A program made the translations under genes and the position numbers. Shown here piece after piece: positions 13,886-44,784 of a stretch of DNA of 64,000 bases (positions are counted from its first letter, which is position 1; the number at the start of each line of letters is the position of its first letter). Source of the stretch: an uncultured bacterium (GTDB lineage Bacteria > Verrucomicrobiota > Lentisphaeria > Oligosphaerales > Oligosphaeraceae); NCBI GenBank assembly GCA_902776645.1, contig CACYQT010000004.1, positions 124,001 through 188,000 of the forward strand, in the 5' to 3' direction. The notes beneath the pieces are model-generated. The model saw nothing but the letters and a program-made list of their open reading frames with translations. It was not told the origin of the DNA and ran no database searches.

Positions 13886-14779
13886 TCACAGCCCCAGCAG
13901 ACGCTCCGCGTTCAGATGGGTGATCTTTTCGTAGGCGGCCTGTGAGATTTTCTTCTCCTCCAGGCCGTTCTTCAGGAAGTCTCTGAGGCCGAAGAAGATA
14001 CTGCTGTTGCGATTCTTCGGCTGGCAAAGATCCGTCCCGTAGAACACCCTGTCTTGGAATTCGTCGATGAATTCGTAGGCGAACGACGGATCACGCGTCA
14101 GCGAATTGAGACCGCTTCCGGCCGAAAAGTCACCGAGCAGATTGTCGTATTTGCGCATCAGCTCGGCGATTCGGCCCGGTCGAACCACGGGGCCTGTTGG
14201 ATAACCGCCCCAATTGGCCGCGTTCACATCGGAACTCATGTGGGACCAGAAGGCCTGCGAATGCCCCAAGATCTTGAGATTCGGGAACTTCTGCAGGACG
14301 CTCTCCAGCCGTTTCAGCCCCAGTTCGTCCACCAGACCGTACATTCCGCCTTCCTGCGTCGCGACATGGATGGTGACGGGAAGTTCGTTCTTCTCCGCCG
14401 CCGCAAACAGATTCAGACAGCGCGGATCCGTGAACGGCATGTTGATCGTCAGTTCACCTATCCCCTTGCAGCCCTTTGCTTTGTAATGTTCGATGATGAA
14501 CGAAAGATCCGCGTCCGGCGTATTGAACATCATGCGCGGATCCAAATTCAAAAACGGAATGAAATGGCCGCCGCTCTCCTGCGCGATGTCCAGAACTTCA
14601 TCGACCGTCTGCGTCACGGACGTGTTTTCCGGCCCGATGACAGGCAGCAGCACGCCGCGGTCGATGCCGATTTCCTTGTGCATATTCAGCAGAAGCTCCG
14701 GCCAGACAAACGGCTCGTCGCCACGACGATATGGCAAATCTTTGTTCTTCAGGCAATGCCCATGAATATCGATCAACAT
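13886..14779 (-). CDS. Amidohydrolase (COG2159 family)
   Basis: A 297-residue TIM-barrel metal-dependent hydrolase of the amidohydrolase-2 type. HGH near the N-terminus (MLIDIHGHCL) and ILGHSQAFW supply metal-binding histidines, and YGTDLCQP supplies a late Asp. Family members include decarboxylases and lactonases acting on small acids and lactones. As the first gene of a probable two-gene operon with the GH115-like enzyme it could process a uronic-acid product; this is inference. Two inverted repeats (14823-14838 and 14847-14866) lie 44-87 bp upstream of the start and are candidate operator sites. Confidence 0.82.
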   Translation of the reverse strand: MLIDIHGHCLKNKDLPYRRGDEPFVWPELLLNMHKEIGIDRGVLLPVIGPENTSVTQTVDEVLDIAQESGGHFIPFLNLDPRMMFNTPDADLSFIIEHYKAKGCKGIGELTINMPFTDPRCLNLFAAAEKNELPVTIHVATQEGGMYGLVDELGLKRLESVLQKFPNLKILGHSQAFWSHMSSDVNAANWGGYPTGPVVRPGRIAELMRKYDNLLGDFSAGSGLNSLTRDPSFAYEFIDEFQDRVFYGTDLCQPKNRNSSIFFGLRDFLKNGLEEKKISQAAYEKITHLNAERLLGL

Positions 14780-14822
14780 GTTGTCTCTTCCTTTTTTCTA
14801 CGTTTGATTGTTCTTTTAGAAT

Positions 14823-14838
14823 ACAATATACATATTGT
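14823..14838. promoter_or_regulatory. Palindrome ACAATAT-AC-ATATTGT
   Basis: Perfect 7-bp arms around two bases, 44 bp upstream of the amidohydrolase start. A related palindrome lies before the LysR gene (21499-21513) and a looser one between the TetM-like and TIM-barrel genes (24455-24474), so it may be a shared operator or an AT-rich promoter core. Confidence 0.45.
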
Positions 14839-14846
14839 CGCCCATA

Positions 14847-16202: not shown

Positions 16203-16949
16203 ATGAGAAAACTGCGTCTTTTCGTCTTGGCAATTCTTTGCCTGACATGCTGCGGTTGTTGCTTTTCAGACAGAACCCAAGATTTCTGCAACCGATGCTA
16301 CAGCTGCCAAACAACACAAATAATCGCTAGAAATGGCAGATTCTCTCAAGACGGAACAACTTTCACCGTCTATTCCCATAAGTTAATCGATCCCGATCCA
16401 AACCAGCATTTAGCGGATTATATAAAATATGAGACTACCCATGTCTATTCAATGACATCGCCTGAACAAAACGGAAAACTTTGCCAATTTACTCTTGTTC
16501 CATCCATCAATACCAAGCGTTTAAATGTGAACACCTTTGGCCTGCCAGAAAATATTAAGTATTGCAATTCTAAGACTTTAGACTACAGCAGCTTGACTTT
16601 GCCTGTATTAATATTGCCACATTATTCAAGAAAATGCGCCATCTCGACTCATCCTGATGATGCCAGTTACTTTTTCAAGCCATTTATTATTTATTGCAAA
16701 GATGACTATATACTTGCAATTCCGTATAAAATGGAAAACAATATCTGTCATTTTTACATACCTAAAGAAGACCTTGTAACCGAAAATATTTATACAAAAA
16801 CATCAAATATAGGCAATATTTTGTCAAAAGTCGTTCTAATGCCACCTGCTGTTATTCTTGATGTCATCACATCGCCCATTCAGTTCATCGTTTTTGTCCA
16901 TAATACACTGAATGGTAAAAGCCATCTAAAAATCTACCCGTATCCATAG
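16203..16949 (+). CDS. Small lipoprotein, YceK/DUF1375-like C-terminus
   Basis: About 248 residues from the ATG at 16203 (MRKLRLFVLAILCLTCCGC); the longer upstream frame overlaps the AlbA_2 gene and lacks a signal. The lipobox-like LTCC after a hydrophobic core indicates a lipoprotein. The end (VVLMPPAVILDVITSPIQFIVF) resembles the conserved segment of YceK-type lipoproteins (Pro-rich, D-x-x-T-x-P-I-Q). The middle is unrecognised. It is AT-rich like its neighbour, so the two probably share an origin. Confidence 0.65.
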   Translation: MRKLRLFVLAILCLTCCGCCFSDRTQDFCNRCYSCQTTQIIARNGRFSQDGTTFTVYSHKLIDPDPNQHLADYIKYETTHVYSMTSPEQNGKLCQFTLVPSINTKRLNVNTFGLPENIKYCNSKTLDYSSLTLPVLILPHYSRKCAISTHPDDASYFFKPFIIYCKDDYILAIPYKMENNICHFYIPKEDLVTENIYTKTSNIGNILSKVVLMPPAVILDVITSPIQFIVFVHNTLNGKSHLKIYPYP

Positions 16950-21016: not shown

Positions 21017-21172
21017 TTCATGGTCTCCTGTATGTTTGGGACGCCGTCGCATCCCGCGTTTTTCATCATGCCGGAAAGCCGTCGCCTCCGTGCTACTATC
21101 ATTCATTTTCTTGTTTTTCCGAAAGGATTTTCTCTAAAACTTAGAGCTTCCGCATGAGATTCTTAGCCTCTC
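21017..21172. other. Gene-free stretch before repeat copy A
   Basis: Upstream of the hydrolase gene. Contains the presumed hydrolase promoter region, but I see no distinct operator, hairpin or plausible reading frame. Confidence 0.4.
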
Positions 21173-21356
21173 GCGAAGCGATAACAACCGCCGTGCAGAC
21201 GGAGGCCATCTTGATCTTCAGCAATCCATCATGTTACGTCCACTAAAAACCTTCAGCACTTCGGCCGACGTCTGCGAGGCATTGATTGTATTATCAGTGT
21301 AATCCGTGTGATCTGTGGTTAAAAAATTTCGTGTTTTTTCGTGCCTTTCGTGGTTC
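21173..21356 (+). repeat. Repeat element R1, copy A
   Basis: First of three related 175-185 bp elements (others at 25451-25625 and 44611-44784). The order is GCGAAGCG, GCCGTGCAGACGGAGGCC, a variable 50-base loop, GGCCGACGTCTGCGAGGC, then a GTG-rich tail ending GTGCCTTTCGTGGTTC. The two arms pair except at two internal positions. It lies between divergent genes, so it is not simply a terminator. Further GTG/CCGTG words continue to about 21400. Confidence 0.85.
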
Positions 21357-21498
21357 CCATTCAATGGTTTGGTTGCTGCTTGACCATTCCGTGTTTTTCA
21401 ATCATCTCAACTGTCATGCCATTACTATATTTTTTATTTATGAAATAGCAAATACCTTGATTTTATATCATCCTATGCCTTGAAGGCATATCACAAGA

Positions 21499-22472: not shown

Positions 22473-24428
22473 TCATTCATCATCAAACAGACTGCCTTCC
22501 AACGCGTTGCGGACGACAAGAATGTATTTCGCCATGTCCAGCGGATCCACCGTGCGGCGCGGCGTCGTCTTGTCCGGCGTGCATTCGCATTCGCGGTAAC
22601 CGTGCAGACGAACGTTCATGGAACCGCGGCCGCCCGTCGCCATCGCAAGCGTCGTCGCGTAGTCCAGACTGGTGCTGACGGGAATCAACGCGTCCAGCGT
22701 GACACGTTCGCCGTCCGTCGTCGTTTCCAGCACTTCGCCGCGCATGAGATTGACATCGTTCATGACGCGACCGATGCAGTCTGCAGGAAGTCTAAATCGC
22801 GCTTTCAGAATCGGTTCCAGCAACTGGCTGCCGCCGTTGCGCAGGCCGTCCTGAATGCCGATGGGCGTCGCCACGACAAAATCCAGCGGATGCGTATGGA
22901 CCAGATGGTGGTTGCCGCCGATCAGCGTGATATGCACATCCGTCACCTCCCAGCCGAGCCGCCCCTGCTTCAACGCCAACGGCAACGCCTGCTCCACCTG
23001 ATGCTGATACCGCGCCATGATGTCCTTCACGGGAACTTTCGATTCGAACGTGACGCCGCTGCCGCGTGGCGCGGGTTCGATGAGAAAATCCATGATAGCC
23101 CAGCAGGGCTTCGGCATCGTGTAATCGACATGGCCGCGGGCGGCCTTCTGGATCGTCTCCTTGTAGATGACGGTCGGTTTCGCGAAGGTCGCCTTCAGCT
23201 CAAAACGTGTCCGCAGCACCTCTTCCAGAATCTCCAGCTGGACGGTTCCCATAACGCGCAAGTTCAACTGGTCCAATGTCTTGATGTAGTTCACCTGCAA
23301 CAGCGGATCTTCTTCGGAAAGCGTCTCGCAAGCCGTCCGCAAGGCGCGCATCTCCTCTGGTTTTTCCGGCAAAACCTGCACATTGATCAACGGCGAACGC
23401 AATTGGCCCGGCTGGACAGGGCGCGGCAGTTTCGCACGGTCGCCGAAGACATGGCCGATTTTCACATCGCCCAAACCATAGACGACGCCGACCTCCCCCG
23501 CCTGCAACGTCCCCAGATCGTCGCCATCGACGCCACGGATCTGCGTGATTTTCCGCTGATCCATTTTCTCCGCACCTGTCAGCAAATCAACACCTTGCGG
23601 AATGTCCAACGCCATTCGGTTCTCCAGACGGCCGCCGAACAACCGCACCCACAGGCCGCGCCCCATGACGCGATCCGTCATCGACGCAAACACGACGCCG
23701 CACAATTCATCGCCGCATGACGACGGCGGCGGCAGAAAATCCACGACGGCATCCAACAACGCCTCGACGCCTTCGTCCTTCAACGCGCTGCCGACATAGA
23801 CGGGATGACACTTCCCGCCACGGGCCCATCCGGCGACTTTCGCCATAAGCGTTTCCCTTGCAATGGTTTTCCCATCCAGATACGCCTCCATCAATTCATC
23901 ATCGTTGCCGCAGACATATTCCGTCAGTTCGGCTTCGTCCGACATCAAAACGACATCCGCCGTCAGCAGTTTGCGAATCTGCGCGACGGCTTCCGCCACA
24001 TCCGCGCCGATGCGGTCGATTTTGTTGATGAAGAAAATGACGGGAACATGCTGTTCATGAAGCGCATGGAACAGGACTTCCGTCTGCGGCTGGACGCCTT
24101 CCACGGCGTCCGCCAGCAGGACGGCGCCGTCCAACGCCCATAGCGACCGTTCGATTTCCGCAGAGAAATCCGTATGTCCAGGCGTGTCTATCAGATTGAT
24201 ATCCATGCCTTTCCATTGGAGACGGACGCATGTCGCCTTCACGGAGATGCCGCGCCGCCGTTCGATGGGCAGCGTGTCCGTATGGGCCGTCCCGTCATCG
24301 ACGCTTCCCGCCTGCGACACGGCCCCCGCATGGACGAGCATCCGCTCCGAAAGCGTCGTCTTGCCTGCGTCAACGTGGGCGAAGACGCCGATGTTCCGTA
24401 TGTTCATGTCTGTTTGTTTTTTGTTCAT
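22473..24428 (-). CDS. TetM-like ribosomal protection / EF-G-type GTPase
   Basis: A 651-residue translational GTPase. G motifs: AHVDAGKTT, RRGISVKA, DTPGHTDF, NKIDRIG and GSALKDEG. The N-terminal run GAVSQAGSVDDGTAHTDTLPIERRRG follows the pattern of the Tet(M)/Tet(O)/Tet(W) group rather than housekeeping EF-G, and the length is right for that group (about 640). These proteins remove tetracycline from ribosomes, but intrinsic relatives without clinical resistance are common. Start taken at ATG 24428; ATG 24407 is the alternative and aligns better with TetM N-termini. Base composition matches the rest of the window, arguing against very recent transfer. Confidence 0.85.
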   Translation of the reverse strand: MNKKQTDMNIRNIGVFAHVDAGKTTLSERMLVHAGAVSQAGSVDDGTAHTDTLPIERRRGISVKATCVRLQWKGMDINLIDTPGHTDFSAEIERSLWALDGAVLLADAVEGVQPQTEVLFHALHEQHVPVIFFINKIDRIGADVAEAVAQIRKLLTADVVLMSDEAELTEYVCGNDDELMEAYLDGKTIARETLMAKVAGWARGGKCHPVYVGSALKDEGVEALLDAVVDFLPPPSSCGDELCGVVFASMTDRVMGRGLWVRLFGGRLENRMALDIPQGVDLLTGAEKMDQRKITQIRGVDGDDLGTLQAGEVGVVYGLGDVKIGHVFGDRAKLPRPVQPGQLRSPLINVQVLPEKPEEMRALRTACETLSEEDPLLQVNYIKTLDQLNLRVMGTVQLEILEEVLRTRFELKATFAKPTVIYKETIQKAARGHVDYTMPKPCWAIMDFLIEPAPRGSGVTFESKVPVKDIMARYQHQVEQALPLALKQGRLGWEVTDVHITLIGGNHHLVHTHPLDFVVATPIGIQDGLRNGGSQLLEPILKARFRLPADCIGRVMNDVNLMRGEVLETTTDGERVTLDALIPVSTSLDYATTLAMATGGRGSMNVRLHGYRECECTPDKTTPRRTVDPLDMAKYILVVRNALEGSLFDDE

Positions 24429-24454
24429 CGAATTGCCTGCATGGTTTCTTTTTT

Positions 24455-25383: not shown

Positions 25384-25450
25384 CTAAAAGCTTAAAGCTT
25401 AAAGCTTAAAGCAAAATACCATAATTCAACTTGACATCACTTTCTCCAGC
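25384..25450. repeat. Short AAAGCTTA tandem array
   Basis: About three and a half copies of an 8-bp unit (AAAGCTTA) follow the stop codon of the TIM-barrel gene, then unique sequence leading into repeat element R1 copy B. Period 8 is shared with other arrays in this window. Confidence 0.6.
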
Positions 25451-25625
25451 GCGAAGCGCATCGAAACCGCCGAGCAGACGGAGGCCATCCAAATACATCA
25501 TCACTAAAGATTTATTTTCAGCAAACAAACTCTTCAGCACCATGGCCGACGTCTGCGAGGCTTCTGTTCTTTCCGTGTGTTCTGTGGACTGAATTTTCGT
25601 GTCTTTTCGTGCCTTTCGTGGTTCT
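25451..25625 (+). repeat. Repeat element R1, copy B
   Basis: Same order of blocks as at 21173: GCGAAGCGC, left arm GCCGAGCAGACGGAGGCCAT, right arm ATGGCCGACGTCTGCGAGGC (25542-25561), TTCTGTGGACTGAATTTTCG and GTGCCTTTCGTGGTTC. The 20-base arms pair at 16 positions; the four exceptions are two adjacent G.A/A.G oppositions at each of two sites. Located between two plus-strand genes, so it may be transcribed. Confidence 0.87.
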
Positions 25626-44535: not shown

Positions 44536-44610
44536 GAGTTTTCTCCTCTAATTATACTACTATTATTCGTTTTCTTTTTACACAAAAATTGTCTTCATGA
44601 CATTTTCGTG

Positions 44611-44784
44611 CGCGAAGCGCTTTCACAACCGCCGAGCAGACGGAGGCCAGCCCGATTCTCGAAACTAAAAGTTTAATGTAAATACACACACTTCAACGCC
44701 ATGGCCGACGTCTGCGAGGCTTTCTGTTTGTTCCGTGTCTTCTGTGGACTGAATTTTAGTGATTTTCGTGCCTTTCGTGGTTCC
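44611..44784 (+). repeat. Repeat element R1, copy C
   Basis: Third copy: GCGAAGCGC, GCCGAGCAGACGGAGGCC (left arm), TGGCCGACGTCTGCGAGGC (right arm), TTCTGTGGACTGAATTTTAG and GTGCCTTTCGTGGTTC. Same orientation as copies A and B, but here it lies upstream of a minus-strand gene and downstream of another. The arms keep both G.A/A.G positions seen in copy B. Confidence 0.87.

Follow-up and report, generated by a model that had tools for sequence, protein, structure and literature searches.

The three hairpins found in the window, the whole 64,000-nucleotide stretch of DNA analysed here, very probably belong to a mobile, REP-like family of DNA repeats confined to one genus. Our observations as a whole are best read as those of a REP-like hairpin repeat, folding as single-stranded DNA or as a cruciform, that is probably mobilised by a protein of the GxxExxY family; on balance we consider this protein the likely nuclease of the repeat family.

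The initial annotation described three copies sharing block order and orientation, with arms GCCGAGCAGACGGAGGCC and GGCCGACGTCTGCGAGGC pairing at 14 of 18 positions and interrupted at two sites by tandem G.A/A.G oppositions. All of these features are present in the sequence, as is the deviation reported for one arm of copy A (GT), which reads GCCGTGC. A covariance model matches the window at 21167–21280, 25445–25561 and 44606–44720, all on the + strand, and finds no fourth strong copy over its whole length. The element is larger than first described: a mini-hairpin also belongs to it, the hairpin is followed by two iteron arrays, and many copies have a left module. The features of the three copies are as follows.

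21091–21406, + strand: copy A, whole segment that two sister species lack at the orthologous site (end positions uncertain within a few bases)
21091–21110, + strand: copy A, start of left module (CTACTAT..TTCATTTTC), common to many copies and promoter-like when read leftward
21171–21181, + strand: copy A, mini-hairpin TCGC-GAA-GCGA
21190–21207, + strand: copy A, arm 1 (GCCGTGCAGACGGAGGCC), from sequence and covariance model
21263–21280, + strand: copy A, arm 2 (GGCCGACGTCTGCGAGGC), from sequence and covariance model
21293–21320, + strand: copy A, iteron array 1 (ATCAGTGTAATCCGTGTGATCTGTGGTT)
21327–21355, + strand: copy A, iteron array 2 (TTTCGTG...TTTCGTGGTT)
25449–25459, + strand: copy B, mini-hairpin GCGC-GAA-GCGC
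25469–25486, + strand: copy B, arm 1 (GCCGAGCAGACGGAGGCC), with the G.A/A.G sites
25544–25561, + strand: copy B, arm 2 (GGCCGACGTCTGCGAGGC)
25562–25588, + strand: copy B, iteron array 1 (TTCTGTTCTTTCCGTGTGTTCTGTGGA)
25594–25623, + strand: copy B, iteron array 2 (TTTTCGTGTCTTTTCGTGCCTTTCGTGGTT)
44555–44574, + strand: copy C, start of left module
44610–44620, + strand: copy C, mini-hairpin GCGC-GAA-GCGC
44631–44648, + strand: copy C, arm 1, from sequence and covariance model
44703–44720, + strand: copy C, arm 2, from sequence and covariance model
44722–44748, + strand: copy C, iteron array 1
44754–44782, + strand: copy C, iteron array 2, with CGTGGTT at its end

In the aligned copies the 5' to 3' order is an optional left module, the mini-hairpin, AACC (found before arm 1 in nearly all copies), the main hairpin with its long and very variable loop, and the two iteron arrays. 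Each array consists of three ~10-nt words, one array being of the TTCTGTGTA type and the other of the TTTCGTGTC type, the latter ending CGTGGTT. The reverse complement of copy B array 2 starts with AACCACGAAAGGCACGAAA; inverted arrays of this word border the GxxExxY element in the source genome (G000). The start of the left module matches the window at the two positions listed only, where 0.01 matches would be expected by chance. As an obligatory end of the element the left module was ruled out by copies such as B that lack it. Read leftward (GAAAATGAAYGATAGTAGTA; window 21091–21150 and 44555–44600), the module lies just upstream of minus-strand gene starts and looks promoter-like; copies may bring outward promoters with them.

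The mini-hairpin is most often CGC-GAA-GCG, with GAA the commonest loop over 117 copies, and its stem covaries (TCGC/GCGA, GCGC/GCGC, CCGC/GCGG, ACGC/GCGT and CCAC/GTGG); a GCGAAGC DNA fragment forms an extraordinarily stable hairpin according to work cited in PMC6582339. The arms of the main hairpin fall into two subfamilies, GCAGACG/CGTCTGC with both G.A loops present, and GCCGCCG/CGGCGGC with mostly a single A bulge replacing the second G.A loop, and mixed arms (GCAGACG with CGGCGGC) are rare. Across the 117 copies pairing is kept in 93.9% of pair cells, and 106 cells are double-changed, compared with 46 in shuffles. This covariation signal is mostly one two-allele subfamily switch, plus a few further compensated events (GGAC/GTCC, GCCC/GGGC and ACAGACG/CGTCTGT). 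The first G.A loop reads GA/GA in 105 of 115 copies, a figure that rises to 109 if four copies carrying a single inserted base are included, and the mismatch itself is therefore conserved. The clearest exception to this conservation is the right-hand unit beside the GxxExxY gene of a sister genome, G004 (locus L122, about 1410–1516), a perfect palindrome GCCGAGC/GCTCGGC with no G.A loop.

In the source genome a blastn search with copy B gives 46 matches, far more than chance would produce. A loose motif regular expression over-called copies, and the copy set was therefore defined by the covariance model, which, with 62 candidates scored per genome, finds at least 62 copies in the source genome, at least 60 in G002 and at least 62 in G004. 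It finds none in two further congeners, G001 and G003, or in 55 less closely related genomes, so that the element is carried by three of the five genomes of the genus. The iteron tail alone is far more widely spread, across the family and order, than the whole element, and the element DNA gave no match in plasmid and phage records at the sensitivity used. Of the copies in long contexts nearly all lie outside large ORFs, and the family is mainly intergenic; direct tandem copies are common and inverted outward pairs rare.

Insertion is evident from empty sites in sister species. In G002 and G004 the intergenic site of copy A (about 300 bp) lacks the element, the orthologous flanks lying 25–26 bp and about 24 bp apart, respectively. 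Copy B is absent in G004, which has another repeat at that site; in G002 it has arms identical to those of G000 and a different loop. An extra copy is present only in G002, within the gap between window positions 24430 and 24523, and in a second region of 18 kb further sites are empty or different in G004 and G002. One clean junction in that region ends at CGTGGTT with no clear target duplication. At the compared sites we saw a possible TCCG(T) duplication at copy A and none at the cleanest other junction, and single copies have no terminal inverted repeats, their ends being unrelated and their left ends heterogeneous. The lack of terminal inverted repeats around single copies and of a clear target duplication leads us to favor a REP-like element over a classical MITE, keeping only the second half of the "MITE/REP-like" label proposed initially.

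Further observations were made in this intergenic DNA. At the copy B site (window 25487–25543 compared with locus L107) the loop and tails diverge between G000 and G002 far more than does the intergenic DNA around them, as would be expected from replacement or conversion of one copy. The intergenic DNA is also rich in other tandem arrays of 7–9-nt words (window 25384–25414; locus L296, about 14620–14840 and 16390–16640), including AGCTTAA, TTAGTGG, TTATGCA, CTTTCGG, CATCTGTCC and TCCAGAACT, which are swapped among sister species at the same sites and are possibly the ends of further repeat systems. At window 22473–24428 lies the gene of a 651-aa EF-G-like GTPase that by eye resembles the ribosomal-protection type.

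The only gene consistently found between inverted copies, in all three genomes, encodes a GxxExxY protein. The sole strong PF13366 gene of the source genome lies between two divergent copies (locus L049, 1302–1443 on the minus strand and 1937–2066 on the plus strand), and the GxxExxY genes of G002 and G004 each likewise lie between two inverted units; elsewhere, about 95 loci yielded a single clear inverted outward pair. The three places have no common flanking sequence, and at the place occupied in G000 both G002 and G004 have no gene and another iterated-word repeat instead. The two units beside each gene are about 68–73% alike and are therefore not fresh terminal repeats. No GxxExxY gene was found in G001 and G003, where the element is likewise absent, and CACGAA triple arrays number 58, 77 and 62 in G000, G002 and G004, as against 1 and 2 in G001 and G003. 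In G004 an inverted unit pair with no gene between (locus L193, 506–817) resembles a deletion derivative of the GxxExxY arrangement.

The GxxExxY protein of the source genome is a full-length family member of ~126 aa, scoring 141 bits, with matches to TIGR04256 and PF13366 (PDDEXK_3; cut-offs 35 and 22). The PD-(D/E)XK catalytic residues D62, E72 and K74 are invariant, and Q86 and Y90 of a QxxxY motif are invariant or nearly so. The structure was predicted with a pLDDT of 95.6, and a Foldseek search with it returned SSO0001, which we take to be a Cas4, as the best match, followed more weakly by archaeal Holliday junction resolvases. A sequence profile search of the PDB gave weak matches only, one of them to a Cas4, and sequence similarity to Cas4 is weak, below the Pfam cut-off. 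Given the family scores, the invariant residues and the predicted Cas4-like fold, a small structure-cutting nuclease is a plausible identity for this protein.

The same arrangement appears around GxxExxY genes in other lineages. Among 30 GxxExxY genes of the class, many have inverted arrays close by on both sides, and the family ranges over many bacterial phyla and some archaea, our GTDB scan of GxxExxY loci covering many phyla and one Methanothrix. In a test that presupposed no word and took as decoys positions from the same loci, the best inverted match across the gene had a mean score of 26.9 at 77 named GxxExxY loci and 14.6 at 257 decoys (Mann-Whitney p=5e-29). With a generic triple-iteron pattern, drawn up after inspecting loci, triple iterons were inverted on both sides of 35 of 64 genes versus 0 of 230 decoys, with the opposite arrangement at 2 of the 64. 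Single copies in the genus have iterons on one side only, unlike these inverted arrays around GxxExxY elsewhere.

In most of the tested genomes the word counts agree with the word that flanks the gene. Among the tested genomes, CATGAAG arrays were found only in G032 and G029, both of which have a GxxExxY gene flanked by CATGAAG, the CGCCAAG pattern only in G012, and CACGAA mainly in G000, G002, G004, G017 and G048; word-pattern matches directly adjoin GxxExxY genes in G048, G032, G029 and G012. The correspondence of word and gene is not one to one, because G017 has CGCCAAG flanks yet no CGCCAAG pattern match (its flank has a 1-nt gap that the pattern disallowed) and G048 has CACAGAG plus CACGAA flanks. 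We found no paper in the open-access literature giving the GxxExxY family a function or a link to repeats.

The inverted-pair layout suggests that the GxxExxY protein family runs a hairpin-repeat system of its own. In the mechanism we propose, the top strand would fold into the mini-hairpin (usually with a GAA triloop) and the long-loop imperfect hairpin with its tandem G.A/A.G, and copies, being non-autonomous, would move into intergenic DNA. In the iterons the GxxExxY nuclease would recognize a cognate sequence tag, and in the hairpin, either as single-stranded DNA or as an extruded cruciform, a structure, with the G.A loop marking the strand; the nuclease would cut beside the hairpin, and a copy would then re-integrate elsewhere. 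We give an even chance to the broader proposal that there is a second class of REPtron that does without HUH enzymes and has GxxExxY proteins as its nucleases. Each protein would recognize its own ~10-nt iteron word, present in inverted gene-flanking arrays and in dispersed hairpin repeats, and would spread these repeats; the window element would then be a lineage-specific variant to which a tandem-G.A hairpin has been added. For the GxxExxY family, which is common in annotations, the layout supplies a testable function: cognate arrays lie inverted on either side of the gene, the same word recurs in dispersed repeats, and congeners without the gene have no such repeats. If true, the proposal would also explain why iterated words such as CACGAAAGACACGAAA, CGCCAAGGACGCCAAG and CACAGAGGCACAGAG abound in many genomes.

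GxxExxY might instead be a passenger or homing-type parasite that entered pre-existing iteron repeats, these having spread otherwise, by host recombination, replication slippage or another enzyme. Homing endonucleases of the PD-(D/E)XK type are known, the three genes occupy unrelated sites with flanking units that differ in sequence, tandem-copy junctions fall within iterons, as expected from recombination, and the arms of copy B are common to G000 and G002 while the loop is not. However, homing into one array would leave direct halves and the arrays are inverted, and the repeats are absent from congeners without the gene; we consider this account unlikely, if the strongest of the alternatives.

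More doubtful is a structured RNA, either cis-regulatory or a small RNA, spread within transcribed elements. Tandem G.A is an RNA motif, conserved here as CGAG/CGAG, the arm changes are compensated, and folding as RNA relative to shuffles is stronger on the + strand (z −4.9) than on the opposite strand (z −3.1), the + strand folded as single-stranded DNA giving z −3.6. The GAA-triloop mini-hairpin and the tandem G.A (CGAG/CGAG) loop are, however, known as stable motifs of single-stranded DNA too. An Rfam scan of the element matched 0 families at the gathering threshold, copies are gained and lost between close species, the loop varies greatly, and flanking-gene orientations are mixed (-- 15, +- 11, -+ 9, ++ 9), in a count that is approximate, being based on ORFs at 70 aa and partly spoiled by spurious reverse ORFs through repeats. 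Of the two possibilities offered by the initial annotation, a structured RNA or a mobile hairpin, the second is supported by high copy number, intergenic placement, presence and absence between sister species, the lack of a fixed gene orientation and compensated arm changes; the first draws no support from Rfam or gene orientation and is less likely.

The least probable account is that of an ordinary MITE mobilized by some undetected DDE transposase: copies are indeed dispersed, short, gene-free and polymorphic in insertion, but they have heterogeneous left ends, no bounding terminal inverted repeats when single and no consistent target duplication at the compared sites, and the one gene found between inverted copies in all three genomes is GxxExxY.

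Among known systems, MITEs resemble the REP-like repeat in being short, gene-free, dispersed and polymorphic in insertion, and differ from it in the terminal inverted repeats and clear target duplications that single copies of the element lack. The GxxExxY protein shares with Cas4 (SSO0001) and archaeal Holliday junction resolvases a PD-(D/E)XK core and a similar predicted fold, and with Cas4 the QxxxY motif; unlike them, it consists of a core of about 114–126 aa only. Integron attC sites and IS200/IS605 ends are folded single strands in which imperfect pairing can mark the strand (PMC8266576), as is proposed for the element, whereas no Y1 gene lies beside units of the window element.

The closest parallel is with the REP/BIME-RAYT REPtrons (PMC2817692, PMC8266576). 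RAYT genes invariably have an inverted pair of REPs around them and occur together with REPs (PMC2817692), and the E. coli TnpA-REP depends on a conserved mismatch in the stem of its REP (PMC8266576). The element is similar in its many intergenic imperfect palindromes (at least 60 copies per genome here), its conserved stem mismatch and compensated stem changes, the placing of a gene between two inverted repeats and the co-occurrence of repeat and gene. It differs in that the flanked gene encodes a PD-(D/E)XK nuclease and not a Y1 HUH transposase, in having AACC before the palindrome in place of a GTAG-type tetranucleotide, and in its iteron arrays and mini-hairpin. Y1/RAYT (PF01797) was rejected as the partner gene, none of the five Y1 genes of the genome being flanked by the window element; four of the five Y1 transposase genes (loci L061–L064) are bracketed by inverted REP-like repeats of other sequence, e.g., AACCGCGTAGCGGTGACATAACACA and GCCGTGGGTGACACCCACGGC. 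Since neither the tetranucleotide nor a Y1 partner was found, we do not class the element as a REP; by analogy, it would work like one. The GxxExxY/hairpin layout can be viewed as repeating the RAYT-REP pattern with a different class of enzyme, and, if our proposal is true, the RAYT/REP life style would have arisen also with an unrelated nuclease fold.
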